A stretch of DNA of 28,453 nt from positions 1-28,453 of IMG/VR virus record IMGVR_UViG_3300013126_000184; one strand, given 5' to 3'. This DNA comes from a virus. The position numbers and the translations under genes were made by a program. Position 1 is the stretch's first letter. Each line of letters starts with the position of its first letter. The notes below the pieces were generated by a model. That model ran no database searches and was not told the DNA's origin. It worked only from the letters and a program-made list of their open reading frames with translations. This document shows, piece after piece, positions 9,759 to 19,817 of this stretch.

Positions 9759-11792
9759 ATGGCTAAACAAAATTTAACAATATTTCAAAGGTTGGGACAA
9801 GTTATCAGTCCAGACGGAATTAAACCAAAAAAACAACCTTCGGTACAAAGATACAATATTGGTAACGGTGAGTTACTAAAAACCGATAATAAAGCTGATT
9901 ATGAAACAGCTAAGTTACAAGCGCAACAAAATAAATACTTAGGTCAAGTTTGGAAAAAGGTTGAAAACGGTTTGTTCCAACAATCAATAAACTATGAAAC
10001 AACACGTATTGGTTCATATTCTGATTTTGAGGCAATGGAGTTTTATCCAACTATTGCAGCTGCTTTGGATGTGATGATGGAAGAATCAACAACACTAAAC
10101 AATCAAGGTAAAATGCTTAACATTTATTCGGATAGTAAACGTGTTAAAACAATATTGGAAGATTTATTCTTCAACAGATTAGATTTCCATACAGCATGTC
10201 CAATGTGGACTAGAAATACATGTAAATATGGGGATAATTTCGTTTTTCTTCATATTGATGGCACAAACGGTATTGTTGGTGCTAAACAAATGCCTAACTA
10301 CGAAATGGAACGTAGAGAAAGCGGTTTATTCGATATGATTAGCGGTAGAGAATTAAATAGTCCAGAGATTTCTGCTGGTGATAAAGTTAAATTTTTCTGG
10401 AGAGGTCGTGATGTTGAATTTAATTCTTGGCAAATAGCTCACTTTAGATTGTTGGGTGATGATAGAAGATTACCATATGGTACTTCTGTTTTAGAGAAGG
10501 CTAGACGTATTTGGAAACAGTTGTTACTATCTGAAGATTCAATGCTTGTTTATCGTGTGACTAGAGCACCAGAAAGACGTGTGTACAAAATATATGTTGG
10601 TAACATTGATGATGCTGATGTTGAACAATACGTGAATGCTATTGCTGACAGATTTAAACGTATGCCAATTATTGACCCACAAACTGGTCAAATCGATTTA
10701 CGTTATAACCAATTAGCTAACGACCAAGATTTCTTCATTCCAGTTAGAGATGAATCCGCACCTAACCCAATCGATACATTGCCAGGTGCATCCAATCTTG
10801 ACCAAATTGCAGATATTGAATATCTAAGAAGTAATTTATTTACCGCATTACGTGTTCCTAAACCATTCTTGGGTTTTGAAGAAGCAACTGGTGAAGGTAA
10901 AAACTTAGCATTACAAGATATCCGTTTTTCTAGAACGATAAATCGTATTCAGCAATCTATTTTACAAGAATTAAATAAAATAGCAATCATTCATTTATAT
11001 TTGTTAGGTTTTGAAGACGAGTTAGATAATTTTACATTAACATTAAATAACCCATCAACACAAGCTGAAATGCTTAAAGTTGAACATTTACAACTTAAAG
11101 TTACATTACTTAAAGACGCTGTTGCTGATATTGGTAATGGATTTGGAACTATGTCATGGACACGTGCACATAGAGAAATTATGGGTTGGTCAGATGATGA
11201 GATTAAACAAGATTTACTTGAACAACGCATGGAAAAAGCAGCTGCTGCTGAATTGGCGAATACTGCTGCTGTTATTAAACATACTGGTATGTTCGATACT
11301 GTTGATAGAATTTATGGGGATTACCAAGCTGCCCTTAATGGTGGCGGTGGTGCTGGTGCTGAAGGTGGTGACGAAGGTTCTGCTGGTGGTGGCGGTGGAG
11401 GCGGCTTCGGTGGAGGCGGCTTCGGTGGTGAAGATTTAGATTTTGGTGGTGAAGGTGAAGCTGGTGCTGAAGAGGCTGCTGGAGAAGAAGGTGCAGCCGC
11501 AACAGAAGCTGGTGGTGAAACTGGTTCTATTGAAGCTGCTGCTGGTGAACCAGTTGCTGAAACTATAAAAAGAACTGAAAAATTATTGGCTGAACAAAGA
11601 AATATATTATCTAATAATTTAACACAAAGAGCCAACAAGTATAAAAACAAATATGTTGATATATTGGTTGAGACTATAAAACCAGATAACACTTCAAAAG
11701 TTGAGAAAATAAAAATATACGATAAAAATCTTAAAATAAACAAAGAGATTGATAACATAATTGACGATATCGATAAAATGTTGGAAGAATAA
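9759..11792 (+). CDS. Portal vertex protein (T4 gp20-like)
   Basis: The product is a dodecameric ring at the unique head vertex, through which DNA is packaged and ejected. Family landmarks include YPTIAAALDVMMEESTTLN near residue 95, the WTRNTCKYGDNFVFLHIDG region, PERRVYKIYVGN, and the stretch DTLPGASNLDQIADIEYLRS (about 339-358). LRVPKPFLGFEEATGEG follows. The position between terL and the protease is that of T4 gene 20. At 677 residues it is longer than T4 gp20 (524). The extra C-terminal part begins near residue 527 with a Gly/Ala/Glu-rich segment, contains GGGFGGGGFGG, and ends in a helical tail. The DNA of that segment is locally GC-rich in an AT-rich genome. Confidence 0.93.
   Translation: MAKQNLTIFQRLGQVISPDGIKPKKQPSVQRYNIGNGELLKTDNKADYETAKLQAQQNKYLGQVWKKVENGLFQQSINYETTRIGSYSDFEAMEFYPTIAAALDVMMEESTTLNNQGKMLNIYSDSKRVKTILEDLFFNRLDFHTACPMWTRNTCKYGDNFVFLHIDGTNGIVGAKQMPNYEMERRESGLFDMISGRELNSPEISAGDKVKFFWRGRDVEFNSWQIAHFRLLGDDRRLPYGTSVLEKARRIWKQLLLSEDSMLVYRVTRAPERRVYKIYVGNIDDADVEQYVNAIADRFKRMPIIDPQTGQIDLRYNQLANDQDFFIPVRDESAPNPIDTLPGASNLDQIADIEYLRSNLFTALRVPKPFLGFEEATGEGKNLALQDIRFSRTINRIQQSILQELNKIAIIHLYLLGFEDELDNFTLTLNNPSTQAEMLKVEHLQLKVTLLKDAVADIGNGFGTMSWTRAHREIMGWSDDEIKQDLLEQRMEKAAAAELANTAAVIKHTGMFDTVDRIYGDYQAALNGGGGAGAEGGDEGSAGGGGGGGFGGGGFGGEDLDFGGEGEAGAEEAAGEEGAAATEAGGETGSIEAAAGEPVAETIKRTEKLLAEQRNILSNNLTQRANKYKNKYVDILVETIKPDNTSKVEKIKIYDKNLKINKEIDNIIDDIDKMLEE
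11394..11423 (+). repeat. 15-bp tandem repeat in the portal Gly-rich segment
   Basis: Two exact copies of GGTGGAGGCGGCTTC lie at 11394-11408 and 11409-11423, encoding GGGGF twice. They are embedded in a longer Gly/Ala/Glu-rich tract of simple codons at about 11337-11560. Confidence 0.8.
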
Positions 11793-13126: not shown

Positions 13127-13150
13127 AAAGCCCCGTATGGGGCTTTTTTT
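13127..13150 (+). terminator. Rho-independent terminator before the protease gene
   Basis: AAAGCCCC (13127-13134) pairs with GGGGCTTT (13139-13146) around the loop GTAT, followed by more T. It is a strong 8-bp stem with 4 GC pairs. Confidence 0.9.
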
Positions 13151-13162
13151 GTTATCGGAATA

Positions 13163-13169
13163 TATTTAT
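13163..13169 (+). promoter_or_regulatory. Candidate late promoter element TATTTAT for the protease
   Basis: TATTTAT (in the context AATATATTTATATC) lies 18 nt before the ATG at 13188 and directly after a terminator. Confidence 0.6.
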
Positions 13170-13187
13170 ATCTATAAGCAATTAATT

Positions 13188-13910
13188 ATGGATATGAATT
13201 ATAACAATATAAAGGTACTTAAACGTGGTCAAAGTGGGTTTGGTTATTTGATTGAACATGATGCTGGATATATTAGTCCAGACGAACCAAGAAACCAACC
13301 TTTCATTAATGAAATTAAAAAATTAGAATCTGGCAAATTAGTAATTGCCGAACCTCTTATCGTTTATGTAGTATTACAAAAATACGGTATCCTAAATAGA
13401 AACGGTAGGATTTATCCAGAAGCAGTACTTAAATCACAAGACAAAATTTATCAACAAGCTATACGTGAACGTAGGGCTGTAGGTGAACTAGACCACCCAG
13501 AAAGTTCTATAATTGCTGGTGATAGAATATCACACAACATTATTGAAACGTGGTGGGAAGGTCACACACTTATGGGTAAGATGGAAATCATTATGAGCCC
13601 TGGGTTTGTTAATTATGGTATTATATCATGTAAAGGTGATGATGTTGCCAACATGTTAAGAAACAGAATTAAGATTGGTGTATCGTCACGTGGGGTAGGT
13701 TCATTAAAAGAAGGTAAGAATGGCGAACAAATAGTACAAGATGATTTTGAGATTATTTGTTGGGATGTTGTTACCGCACCATCTACACCAGATGCATGGA
13801 TTGGAAGAAGTGCAGAAGAACTAAGACCATACGTTGAAAATGTAGAAGTGAAAAAACCATTATTAAAAGAAAATCTATTAGATGATTTAGATAAATTTTT
13901 ATCTGAATAA
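13188..13910 (+). CDS. Prohead core protease (T4 gp21-like)
   Basis: The product is the serine protease that matures the prohead by cleaving scaffold and capsid proteins, then itself. The ATG at 13188 gives 240 residues; an upstream frame to 13137 would run through the terminator. The family signatures are NRNGRIYPEAVL (70-81), GELDHPESS (99-107, catalytic H103) and GVSSRGVGS (164-172, with S166 or S167 as nucleophile). Then come DDFEIICWDVVTAPSTPDAW (185-204). Order and spacing fit the herpes-assemblin-like protease fold of gp21 (T4: 212 aa). The C-terminal helix KENLLDDLDKFLSE may be the scaffold-targeting tail. Confidence 0.93.
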   Translation: MDMNYNNIKVLKRGQSGFGYLIEHDAGYISPDEPRNQPFINEIKKLESGKLVIAEPLIVYVVLQKYGILNRNGRIYPEAVLKSQDKIYQQAIRERRAVGELDHPESSIIAGDRISHNIIETWWEGHTLMGKMEIIMSPGFVNYGIISCKGDDVANMLRNRIKIGVSSRGVGSLKEGKNGEQIVQDDFEIICWDVVTAPSTPDAWIGRSAEELRPYVENVEVKKPLLKENLLDDLDKFLSE

Positions 13911-17243: not shown

Positions 17244-17816
17244 ATGAAACTAAGTGAAATTTTTGATGAATTATTTGAAGCTAGAGTAACCATAAATGAT
17301 ACTAAAAATCTAGCCGTTATCTTTCTTAGGGACGATAATATATTCTTACTTATTGATACTGAATACGCTGACCCAAAAGGATATATTGGTTTTGGTCAGA
17401 CACTAGGTGATGTATATGGTATTTATGGTGCATATGCTGAAAAAGGCTATGGTCCATTATTATATGAATTGGTAATGACTCACGTATATCCGAAAGGTGT
17501 TACAATGTCCGATGATTCATCAACGAGTGAGGAAGCGATGAATGTGTGGGAAAAATTTGCTTCCAGAAATGATGTTGAAAAGAAACCAATAATCAGAACA
17601 CAACAAACCGATAAAGAAGAATGGTTTGATAGCATGTATGGTGATGACCCAGAACAAGATAAATGGATTGATAGAGGTAGAGAATTACATAAAACACAAT
17701 TCATTTACACTCTAGGTAAACCAAAATTAGACGCACTAATATCTAAAGGTGATGAATTTTTTAAAAAACACCCATCATTAGATGTATGGCATATGATTTA
17801 TAGTCTTGAAAGATAG
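17244..17816 (+). CDS. Possible GNAT-type acetyltransferase, 190 aa
   Basis: Residues 57-115 resemble a GNAT core: a strand (VYGIYGAYAE), then the KGYGPLLYELVMT turn and helix like the acetyl-CoA-binding motif A, then DSSTSEEAMNVWEKFASRND (91-110). That last pattern is typical of the C-terminal part of phage acetyltransferase-like proteins. The canonical Q/RxxGxG/A is only partly present (EKGYGP). The C-terminal 70 residues (EWFDSMYGDDPEQDKWIDRG) are not part of GNAT. It lies alone between the capsid terminator and the convergent minus-strand genes, with only 2 nt to the next stop codon. The substrate is unknown. Confidence 0.55.
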   Translation: MKLSEIFDELFEARVTINDTKNLAVIFLRDDNIFLLIDTEYADPKGYIGFGQTLGDVYGIYGAYAEKGYGPLLYELVMTHVYPKGVTMSDDSSTSEEAMNVWEKFASRNDVEKKPIIRTQQTDKEEWFDSMYGDDPEQDKWIDRGRELHKTQFIYTLGKPKLDALISKGDEFFKKHPSLDVWHMIYSLER

Positions 17817-17818
17817 AT

Positions 17819-18010
17819 TCACTTCAATCCTTCATCATATTTATTTTTATTAGAGGAAAACTCTTCTCTAAAATTTTCAACCATTTCTGGTAAATTAAGA
17901 AAATAACTTCTAACGTGTTTACCTAAATCCATGTCATTAGGATATTCTTTAACCAACTTTTTAATATCCATCAACGCTGCTTCTAATAATTCTTTTTCTA
18001 GATTTTTCAT
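17819..18010 (-). CDS. Small hypothetical protein, 63 aa
   Basis: ATG at 18010 gives MKNLEKELLEAALMDIKKLV, then a polar helical protein ending with NKNKYDEGLK. An upstream in-frame start at 18055 would cross the hairpin and promoter-like site, so 18010 is preferred. The gene is convergent with the plus-strand gene, and their stops are separated by 2 nt. It is the only gene here with a Bacteroidota-type promoter immediately upstream, which suggests expression by host polymerase, perhaps early. Its function is not recognised. Confidence 0.65.
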   Translation of the reverse strand: MKNLEKELLEAALMDIKKLVKEYPNDMDLGKHVRSYFLNLPEMVENFREEFSSNKNKYDEGLK

Positions 18011-18024
18011 AACAATATTTTTAA

Positions 18025-18056
18025 CAAATGTACAATAAAAAAACCGAGAATACAAA
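18025..18056 (-). promoter_or_regulatory. Bacteroidota-type promoter TTTG-N20-TACATTTG
   Basis: On the minus strand TTTG (18056-18053) is followed after 20 nt by TACATTTG (18032-18025). This fits the Bacteroidota housekeeping consensus (TTTG about 20 nt before TAnnTTTG). The expected transcript start is 8-10 nt before the ATG at 18010. The -33 part overlaps the terminator hairpin. Confidence 0.55.
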
Positions 18057-18073
18057 TCCTCGGTTATTTTTAT
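18035..18073 (-). terminator. Bidirectional hairpin, strongest as minus-strand terminator
   Basis: AACCGAG (18042-18048) pairs with CTCGGTT (18059-18065). Read on the minus strand it is followed by a run of seven T; on the plus strand by TATTTTTAT. It lies downstream of the orphan zinc-ribbon tail (stop at 18095-18097) and was probably the terminator of the original zinc-ribbon gene. It may also stop plus-strand transcription from the 17244 gene. Confidence 0.75.
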
Positions 18074-18094
18074 GTGTTAACTCGTTAATTTTAT

Positions 18095-18145
18095 TTATGC
18101 TTTTGTGCCGCATTGACCACAAAATATTTGACTTTTTAGATATAT
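18095..18145 (-). pseudogene. Orphan C-terminal tail of a zinc-ribbon gene
   Basis: Read on the minus strand, this stretch encodes IYLKSQIFCGQCGTKA and a stop, preceded by an in-frame stop at 18148. It aligns with the end of the intact protein encoded at 18954-19817 (KGHKYCSQCGGKV, stop): K, C, Q, C, G and K are identical, Y/F and V/A are conservative, and the stop codons coincide. By my count the aligned 14 codons share 28 of 42 bases. It has no start and cannot be a gene by itself. It is best read as the former 3' end of the zinc-ribbon gene, separated from its body by the endonuclease gene. Confidence 0.65.
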
Positions 18146-18151
18146 TCATTA

Positions 18152-18158
18152 TATTTAT
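18152..18158 (+). promoter_or_regulatory. Candidate late promoter element TATTTAT for the endonuclease
   Basis: TATTTAT (in the context TTATATTTATAATAAA) lies 12 nt before the ATG at 18171. A TTGACT at 18128-18133 lies 43 nt before the ATG, the same spacing as TTGACT before the 12681 gene. Confidence 0.5.
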
Positions 18159-18170
18159 AATAAAAAAAAT

Positions 18171-18953
18171 ATGTTATATAATTATAATTTAAAATTTTTT
18201 GATGAAATAAATGAAGAATCATCATATTTTATTGGATTACTATTTGCTGATGGTTCAATAAGTGATAAAGGAAAAATAACATTAAATCTTTCAAAAAAAG
18301 ATATTGAAATTATTGAGGTATTTAAACAAAAATTAAATACCAACAAACCTATTTTTTCAGTCAAAAAAACTAATTCATTATCTTTTAGTTTCCAAAATAA
18401 AATGATTTCAGAGCAATTAAAAAATTTTGGTTTGATTCCAAATAAATCTTTAATTTTAAAATTTTCTGATAAAATACCTAATAAATATTTAAAAGATTAT
18501 ATTAGAGGTTATTTTGATGGTGATGGGTGTGTCTCCATTACCAAAAATAAACACACATCTAGTTTAAGAGTACATTTTGTTGGTACTTATGAAATGTTAG
18601 AAGGAATTCAAAATGTTTTGATAAAAGAATTAAATATCACTAAAACAAAGATTAATCAATTAACTAAGGGAAAAAATACTTTTCAATTTGAAATCAGAAG
18701 AAAAAATGATATAATTTTGTTTAGAGATTTTATTTATTACAATAATTGTATTTGTTTAACTAGAAAAAAAGAAAAATTTTTCACCCAAATTGAATTGAAA
18801 CATGATGGTACTTTATTAACTTCTAGACATAAAAATATTTGTTTTAGAAAAAATAGAAATAGATGGAGAGCAACTTATTATTTAGAAGGTAAAAGAAAAG
18901 AAAAAAGCTTCAAATCTGAATCTGAAGCTTTAAACTTTTTAGAAAATTTGTAG
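18171..18953 (+). CDS. LAGLIDADG homing endonuclease with C-terminal AP2-like domain
   Basis: The product is a site-specific DNA endonuclease that promotes copying of its own gene into empty alleles. Two LAGLIDADG motifs are visible: FIGLLFADGSIS (20-31, catalytic D27) and YIRGYFDGDGCVS (110-122, catalytic D118), so one chain can form both halves of the active site. Residues about 219-258 (ICFRKNRNRWRATYYLEG, then KSFKSESEALNFL) resemble an AP2/integrase-type DNA-binding domain, a common accessory of phage endonucleases. The gene is opposite in orientation to its neighbours. Its stop codon directly abuts the stop codon of the zinc-ribbon gene, and it is flanked on the other side by the orphan zinc-ribbon tail. 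It looks complete and intact (260 aa). The codon use is even more A/T-rich than that of its neighbours, as expected for a mobile gene. Confidence 0.9.
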   Translation: MLYNYNLKFFDEINEESSYFIGLLFADGSISDKGKITLNLSKKDIEIIEVFKQKLNTNKPIFSVKKTNSLSFSFQNKMISEQLKNFGLIPNKSLILKFSDKIPNKYLKDYIRGYFDGDGCVSITKNKHTSSLRVHFVGTYEMLEGIQNVLIKELNITKTKINQLTKGKNTFQFEIRRKNDIILFRDFIYYNNCICLTRKKEKFFTQIELKHDGTLLTSRHKNICFRKNRNRWRATYYLEGKRKEKSFKSESEALNFLENL

Positions 18954-19817
18954 TTAAACTTTACCACCACACTGACTGCAATATTTGTGACCTTTTCCTA
19001 ATTTAGCACCACAGTTTGTGCAATATACTTTTACTTGCAAGTCTTCAACTGTGTTTATTTTTTGTGATATTGGTAATAATTTATATTCCACACTATGGAA
19101 AGGGAAATTATCAAAATCTTTACTAACTGTTGTTAATTTTTGATTTGAATCAGAACCTTTTTCAACTCTACCAGTTTCAATTGATTTAGATTTCTTAGCA
19201 AAACTTCTAGTAGGACTTGATTTAGTCACTGGTTCGCTTTCTAAGTTAAGACTATCTAATGTAATTGAATTACTTGTAGGTGTAATATTAGCATTATAAT
19301 AACTGGTAGAAACTGACGTTAAATTTAGTGTACCACTAACACCATTAACATATCCAGTACCGCTAGAACCAATTGGAACGCTATTTATGGACGGACTACC
19401 ATATATAACTGGATTCATTGGTAATGAACCATAACCACCATAATATGGTTTTGATTCACGATAAAAACTAACTTTGAAATCACCGTTGTTTTTTATAGCT
19501 TCTTTTACTTCTTGAGTGTTTGATACTTCATATGTATCAAATAAGAATTTTTTAGCAACATCGATATATCTATCTAAGAAAACACGTTGGCCTGGGTTTA
19601 ATACCAATCCACCTTGTGAGATTTGTTTCCCATTAAGCTCGATTTTGGTTAAAATAACGTCCGTAGTTGGATTAAATAATTCAATCTGGAACTCTGTACC
19701 AGATTTAAGATAATACGTTGGCAAATCGCCCGTATTCTTGTAGACTTTAAGTCTTGATTTGTTTACAGCAATATTTGCTGAAGGCACAGATGGTGCCGCA
19801 GAATAATTTAAATACAT
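18954..19817 (-). CDS. Virion-type protein with C-terminal zinc ribbon, 287 aa
   Basis: The N-terminal domain (about 1-125) looks all-beta: SRLKVYKNTGDLPTYYLKSG, then TEFQIELFNPTTDVILTKIE, and LVLNPGQRVFLDRYIDVAKK followed by FLFDTYEV. I recall this type from large and T4-like phages as a probable virion component. A Ser/Thr/Gly-rich linker (about 125-225) follows. The C-terminus is a zinc ribbon with CTNCG and CSQCG, eleven residues apart, which gives four zinc ligands. The stop codon directly touches that of the endonuclease gene on the other strand, and no terminator follows on this side. The last dozen codons were probably supplied with the endonuclease, since a second, diverged version lies beyond it. 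A late-type element lies 106 nt upstream. Confidence 0.72.
   Translation of the reverse strand: MYLNYSAAPSVPSANIAVNKSRLKVYKNTGDLPTYYLKSGTEFQIELFNPTTDVILTKIELNGKQISQGGLVLNPGQRVFLDRYIDVAKKFLFDTYEVSNTQEVKEAIKNNGDFKVSFYRESKPYYGGYGSLPMNPVIYGSPSINSVPIGSSGTGYVNGVSGTLNLTSVSTSYYNANITPTSNSITLDSLNLESEPVTKSSPTRSFAKKSKSIETGRVEKGSDSNQKLTTVSKDFDNFPFHSVEYKLLPISQKINTVEDLQVKVYCTNCGAKLGKGHKYCSQCGGKV

Follow-up and report, generated by a model that had tools for sequence, protein, structure and literature searches.

The window, a complete virus record of 28,453 bases in IMG/VR that encodes a major head protein and an S77 prohead protease, contains a conserved phage gene for a zinc-ribbon protein whose last codons have, in our reading, been entered by a mobile unit of about 860 bp, made up of a homing endonuclease gene and a substitute C-terminus for the gene in which it sits, so that a complete protein is still encoded there. 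We put the probability of this reading at roughly 0.87. In the direction in which the zinc-ribbon gene is read, the features of the region are as follows (window positions).

18987-19817, minus strand: resident part of the zinc-ribbon gene, codons 1-277, the target of the insertion (open reading frame, Zn_Ribbon_1 match, invariant cysteines).
18954-18986, minus strand: substitute 3' end borne by the unit, KYCSQCGGKV plus stop (19/30 bases shared with the native tails of relatives; the equivalent part travelled with the nuclease in L009 and L033).
18904-18931, minus strand: terminator-like hairpin for the zinc-ribbon transcript, in the antisense of the endonuclease C-terminal codons (synonymous recoding; also in L009 and L033).
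18171-18953, plus strand: LAGLIDADG homing-endonuclease gene, 260 aa, with two LAGLIDADG motifs and a weak AP2-like C-terminus (Pfam, PHROG, stop codons).
18125-18170, plus strand: 5' leader of the endonuclease gene, forming the far end of the unit (equivalent stretch common to L009 and L033 up to AAGACTTAT).
18095-18124, minus strand: the gene's original 3' terminus, FCGQCGTKA and stop codon, displaced and severed from the zinc-ribbon gene (30/30 bases shared with the working tail of L001 and L002).
18042-18065, minus strand: original zinc-ribbon terminator, now behind the displaced tail (equivalent sequence directly 3' of the gene in L001 and L002).
17819-18010, minus strand: small gene, 63 aa from its ATG, which is next after the zinc-ribbon gene in endonuclease-free relatives (tblastn).

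The intact zinc-ribbon reading frame occupies 18954-19817 on the minus strand and, as had been stated from the letters of the window, ends KGHKYCSQCGGKV-stop; the stop codon is 18956-18954. Zn_Ribbon_1 spans residues 265-285 of the protein, and the ribbon cysteines show no variation across 19 aligned relatives. The predicted structure of the protein was of low confidence (mean pLDDT 55), and a fold search with it returned no usable match. Two distant zinc-ribbon relatives, and no more, were found in host genomes. One further record gives a zinc-ribbon match in two pieces.

The endonuclease matches Pfam LAGLIDADG_3 at 41.3 bits (cut-off 22.5) and PHROG 4645 (endonuclease) at E=1.6e-44; its AP2 match falls under the Pfam cut-off. 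Each of the two LAGLIDADG motifs, FIGLLFADGSI and YIRGYFDGDGCV, has its terminal acidic residue, and both are kept in the related nucleases of L009 and L033. A sequence search of the PDB gave at best a weak match to a putative homing endonuclease, 2dch. As a putative homing enzyme it would cleave at a specific site and transfer its own gene, of which the unit shared between diverged flanks in L009 and L033 (below) is an indirect sign. In the direction of the zinc-ribbon gene, the proposed unit begins with the substitute C-terminus (9-10 codons and a stop), continues with the antisense nuclease gene, whose C-terminal codons contain a terminator-like hairpin for the host gene, and closes with the nuclease leader, leaving the old 3' end and its own terminator behind, cut off from the gene. 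The two genes are convergent, and the endonuclease TAG immediately abuts the zinc-ribbon TAA.

Which of the two ends is the old one can be read from relatives that lack the endonuclease. On the far side of the endonuclease gene from the zinc-ribbon gene, an orphan frame ends IYLKSQIFCGQCGTKA-stop (stop codon 18097-18095), and a minus-strand terminator follows about 30 nt past this stop, at 18065-18042. The sequence-only reading had reported both, together with an identity between the two tails of 28/42 bases over 14 codons, which a base count reproduces. Taken alone, the protein match between the tails falls close to the upper limit of what chance gives and is not compelling: among 912 open reading frames scanned with the stop as anchor, it scores 37, and upstream controls reach 46 and 38. 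The relationship is nevertheless certain, because the orphan is identical to the working tail of L001 and L002 at 30/30 bases and is followed by matching downstream sequence, which rules out chance similarity.

Four relatives without the endonuclease (L001, L002, L003 and L023) have a zinc-ribbon gene that ends KLGKGHKFCGQCGTKA-stop, and directly after the stop come TAAAATAAATTAACGAGTTAACACATAAAT, the terminator and a homologue of the small window gene at 17819-18010. In L001 and L002, the C-terminus is HKFCGQCGTKA-stop, followed by the leader found in the window, the terminator and the next gene, whose homology to the window gene (74.5% identity over 51 aa by tblastn) starts 90 nt past the last sense codon of the zinc-ribbon gene. 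As the window orphan shares 30/30 bases with the L001/L002 tail and the present tail of the window gene only 19/30, the orphan is the original end and HKYCSQCGGKV is a foreign substitute. The earlier proposal, that an endonuclease gene had entered the zinc-ribbon coding region with a substitute C-terminus, had called for endonuclease-free relatives in which the gene runs straight into KFCGQCGTKA-stop and the downstream terminator, and this is what these relatives have; neither relatives without such a tail nor a separate complete paralogue was seen among them. The observation behind that proposal is thus confirmed, and its interpretation, supported by the unit-free relatives, the exact match of the orphan and four more loci, is largely right. 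In L021 and L022, the zinc-ribbon gene is joined in frame to the small gene behind it and seems to have lost the ribbon (L021:5001-5930); some phages may therefore do without the tail, and this weakens the case for its obligatory restoration. In L021, a cargo open reading frame overlaps the stop of the fused gene, with neither a nuclease nor a displaced tail.

The same arrangement recurs elsewhere. In IMG/VR, a search with the zinc-ribbon protein turned up 31 loci, to which a profile scan added 80, many of them overlapping. Seventy-eight distinct zinc-ribbon loci were scored for an opposite-strand open reading frame whose stop is only a few bases from that of the gene, and for a second stop-anchored zinc-knuckle tail downstream. 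A nuclease reading frame that abuts or overlaps the gene stop, together with a displaced tail, was present at five (the window, L009, L033, L018 and L058), and the other 73 have neither. A displaced-tail match in L111 proved to be its own tail past a frameshift. The four loci besides the window are as follows.

L009: zinc-ribbon gene ends KFCSQCAKKV; LAGLIDADG reading frame with 60% identity to that of the window; old tail FCSSCGTKA.
L033: nuclease is that of L009; old tail FCSNCGTKT.
L018: zinc-ribbon gene ends KLKVEFKYCPLCATKI; 357-aa GIY-YIG-like reading frame; old tail CGSKLGKGDKFCANCGTKA.
L058: zinc-ribbon gene ends HKLKNGYKYCPICATKV; 338-aa relative of the L018 nuclease; old tail CGAKLGKTDRFCSQCGHKK.

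The nuclease lies on the strand opposite to the zinc-ribbon gene in 5/5 loci, and the stop codons, which abut in the window, overlap in the other four. Insertion site goes with nuclease type: the LAGLIDADG units (window, L009, L033) split the gene just 5' of the F in the KFC motif, and the unrelated GIY-YIG-like units (L018, L058) some ten codons before that, close to the CG of the first knuckle. The polarity seen in the window is repeated where close unit-free relatives exist, with the old tail of L009 sharing 30/30 bases with the L007/L008 group against 21/30 for its substitute tail, and that of L018 sharing 56/60 with L016 against 36/60. The closest relatives of L033 and L058 are more distant, and there the counts for old and new tail are 21/30 against 19/30 and 44/60 against 34/60, respectively. 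The GIY-YIG-borne tails are nearest to the tails native to L061 and L073, which belong to other lineages (49/60 each), a likeness that points to the kind of phage from which they may have come. Behind the zinc-ribbon terminator, many relatives, but not every one, have a reading frame that resembles secreted DNA/RNA non-specific endonucleases and has a signal-peptide-like start (L004, L005, L006, L007, L009, L016, L024 and L029; Endonuclease_NS match of the L004 frame, 98.7 bits).

The second nuclease is called GIY-YIG-like on several partial likenesses. No Pfam model scored above cut-off for the L018 and L058 proteins, and the match to PHROG 5123 (GIY-YIG homing endonuclease) has E=0.015. The predicted N-terminal domain runs strand-strand-helix-helix-strand-helix, and its best structural matches include the I-TevI catalytic domain (probability 0.84-0.97; TM, by target length, about 0.7), although E is at least 0.5. 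The characteristic GIY-YIG residues are visible in these nucleases.

Alignment of L009 with L033 provides evidence that substitute tail and nuclease move as one piece. The flanks of these two loci are diverged, with 58% identity on the left (upstream gene) and 52% on the right, behind the old tail. Between them lies a shared unit of 95-98% identity, in which the substitute tail agrees at 36/38 bases and the nuclease block at 802/816 (98.3%). The similarity starts at ATAAATTCTGTAG in the tail codons and stops at AAGACTTAT directly before the old tail, boundaries that are accurate to within a few bases. A unit that is nearly identical between diverged flanks must have travelled with its tail and nuclease jointly, and each recipient retained a 5' part and a displaced tail that were its own. 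In IMG/VR (2.9 million viral contigs), the closest relatives of both the LAGLIDADG and the GIY-YIG-like nucleases all lie at the zinc-ribbon gene's 3' end; the remaining relatives show domain-only likeness at 30-43% identity. Nine distant LAGLIDADG relatives (30-35% identity) come from crAss-like, Flavobacterium, Lak and other phages, and those that are annotated have other gene contexts; the arrangement is probably no general habit of this LAGLIDADG family.

The unit also supplies the target gene with a terminator-like hairpin. The sequence-only reading had held that the intact gene has no terminator of its own; this did not stand, as a hairpin with a 12-bp stem and a T-rich tail lies in the direction of the zinc-ribbon gene at 18931-18904, inside the endonuclease gene. 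L009 and L033 keep it with the stem core conserved and the loop altered. When the last endonuclease codons were redrawn synonymously from the phage's own codon usage (2000 draws), an equally stable terminator arose in 4/2000 recodings for the window, 3/2000 for L009 and 0/2000 for L058; of the control gene ends, 2/85 reach -9 kcal/mol. The window and L009 share ancestry, so these hairpins amount to two independent cases at most. The L018 nuclease gene has no embedded hairpin (830/2000 recodings equally stable), and an embedded terminator is therefore not universal among the units.

An unlikely alternative is that ordinary illegitimate or short-homology recombination between diverged phages imported the gene end with its downstream neighbour and duplicated the tail, the nuclease being a passenger. 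Against this, each of the five displaced zinc-ribbon tails comes with a nuclease, and no such tail was found at the other 73 of the 78 loci within the sequence available (which ends 0.6 kb downstream in L030 and 1.1 kb downstream in L019, so that farther remnants would be invisible there). With the smaller count of negatives (5 versus 66), a Fisher test gives p=8e-8. The recurrence of both nuclease types, each at its fixed codon, and the sharp unit boundaries in L009 and L033, also speak against a passenger. What the alternative does have in its favour is a duplicated tail with other cargo: L018:7311-8355 (the same single contig as L034, L079 and L134) has a major-capsid gene whose 3' end is recoded; next come a GNAT-domain gene that begins MKTLIQKLLRESL, not a nuclease, and a displaced capsid tail, FNNRFYGHVKVDGVPTFNINELR. 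The two capsid tails have identical last 22 residues and differ at 18/78 bases; the displaced copy shares 70/78 with the capsid tail of L016 and the current one 66/78. In L004 (8110-8136), a 27-nt scrap of capsid tail (INNRFYGHI) sits between the terminator of the capsid gene and an HNH-like reading frame, and is perhaps the remnant of an older tail swap. These two capsid cases suggest, from sequence comparison, that tail swapping extends beyond the zinc-ribbon gene. That selfish modules of this phage group live by tail swapping in general, with independent nuclease types having evolved compact C-terminus/stop/terminator units whose terminator is encoded in the antisense of the nuclease's C-terminal codons, and with non-nuclease cargo as at the L018 capsid gene, is a tentative extension to which we give somewhat less than even odds.

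LAGLIDADG and GIY-YIG nucleases are frequently borne by introns, and the insert is located in conserved codons, as would suit a self-splicing group I intron or an intein whose mature product has the old tail, the new tail being mere read-through. This we consider very improbable. No group I or group II intron, or other Rfam family, was found at gathering score in the five source sequences, and at E<=5 the window stretch gave no intron-like match; a nuclease encoded on the opposite strand makes an intein impossible; and read-through would not yield a proper CxxC knuckle five times. The thought that the orphan is the remnant of a former tandem zinc-ribbon paralogue, with the endonuclease lying between two genes, draws on the shortness and mutual similarity of zinc-ribbon tails and can be set aside almost entirely, since no relative examined has a second zinc-ribbon gene at the site (73 loci are without one), the empty alleles are a single gene continuous with an orphan-type tail, and the orphan has no gene body upstream.

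For a homing endonuclease with a substitute C-terminus, the following course is proposed. In a mixed infection, the endonuclease would cut a unit-free phage at the codons of the second CxxC knuckle, and repair of the break off a unit-bearing genome would copy the unit into the cut phage, with the recipient's 5' gene part and its old tail serving as homology arms. The substitute tail keeps the ribbon cysteines in different DNA, and the rejoined hybrid gene should consequently be both functional and uncuttable. An unrecoded junction would recreate much of the target, and a foreign tail is therefore the expected solution.

Several known systems share parts of this arrangement. Integrative elements that restore a tRNA gene supply a replacement 3' end and leave the old end in place at the far junction. 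The phage unit likewise provides a new 3' end with the old one at the far junction; it differs in having neither a recombinase nor an identical att core, in its protein-gene target, and in tails that differ at 11/30 bases. The cyanophage psbA endonuclease is a case of intronless homing next to an intron site, and mobE in Aeh1 nrdA is a gene-splitting insertion. Both resemble the phage nuclease here in being aimed at conserved codons of an important gene. We know of no substitute coding sequence supplied by either for its target.

The free-standing endonucleases of T4-like phages (seg, mob) are intergenic, flanked by conserved genes, and their cut sites are hundreds to thousands of bp distant; mobE and segF have terminators within their coding regions, and the review passages considered describe no tail replacement (PMC2988022). 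Like them, the nuclease genes reported here are phage-borne, lie outside introns and were likely spread by break repair in mixed infection. Unlike them, the unit lies inside the target coding sequence with replacement codons, and the original tail is displaced.

The closest parallel comes from fungal mitochondria. In Glomus, the atp6, atp9, cox2 and nad3 genes have inserted C-termini with LAGLIDADG or (atp9) GIY-YIG reading frames, and the native C-terminus stays downstream and is nearer to relatives than the inserted one (PMC3630166). The same paper compares these cases with atp6 of Allomyces macrogynus, where an endonuclease reading frame carries a C-terminus (PMC3630166). The phage units share with these fungal mORFs an endonuclease frame near the 3' end of a conserved gene, a foreign in-frame C-terminus, and a native tail kept downstream that is closer to relatives (window, L009, L018). 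They differ in residing in a tailed-phage gene, in the convergent nuclease with abutting or overlapping stops, in the terminator within the nuclease antisense (L018 excepted) and in a tail of only 10-20 codons; in Glomus, the inserted C-terminus, and in some genes also the mORF, is in phase and transcribed with the native gene (PMC3630166). Tail swapping had been called an unusual strategy from the window alone; unusual it is, but with the fungal cases it is not without precedent (PMC3630166). No phage precedent was found in the open-access literature, subscription journals being outside the search. The strategy is thus known from fungal mitochondria and is found here in environmental phages with a different layout of convergent genes, abutting or overlapping stops and an embedded terminator.

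If this reading is true, a homing endonuclease can inhabit conserved phage coding sequence with neither an intron nor an intein, by bringing replacement codons that differ in DNA and keep the protein motif, together with a new terminator. This would link a fungal mitochondrial mechanism to phages and offer a source of C-terminal mosaicism in phage proteins. The phage pairs L009/L007 and L018/L016 are possible test cases. For annotators, short orphan tails beside nucleases may be displaced gene ends.

Finally, some features of the wider region were recorded in passing. The interval between the capsid and zinc-ribbon genes, at window 17244-17816 and in many of the loci, holds highly variable cargo genes with common short N-termini (MKLSEIFDELFEAR, MKxLIKKLLREGL), which recall the capsid-targeting peptides of T4 internal proteins. 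Behind the capsid gene of L012 (6600-8180), a 526-aa translation has weak MTES_1575-type nuclease and weak Mom/GNAT-like matches, all below cut-off. Similar C-terminal peptides, DNIIDDIDKMLEE and ENLLDDLDKFLSE, occur at window 11754-11792 and 13872-13910, in the proteins encoded at 9759-11792 and 13137-13910 (the prohead protease), and are perhaps a shared assembly signal.
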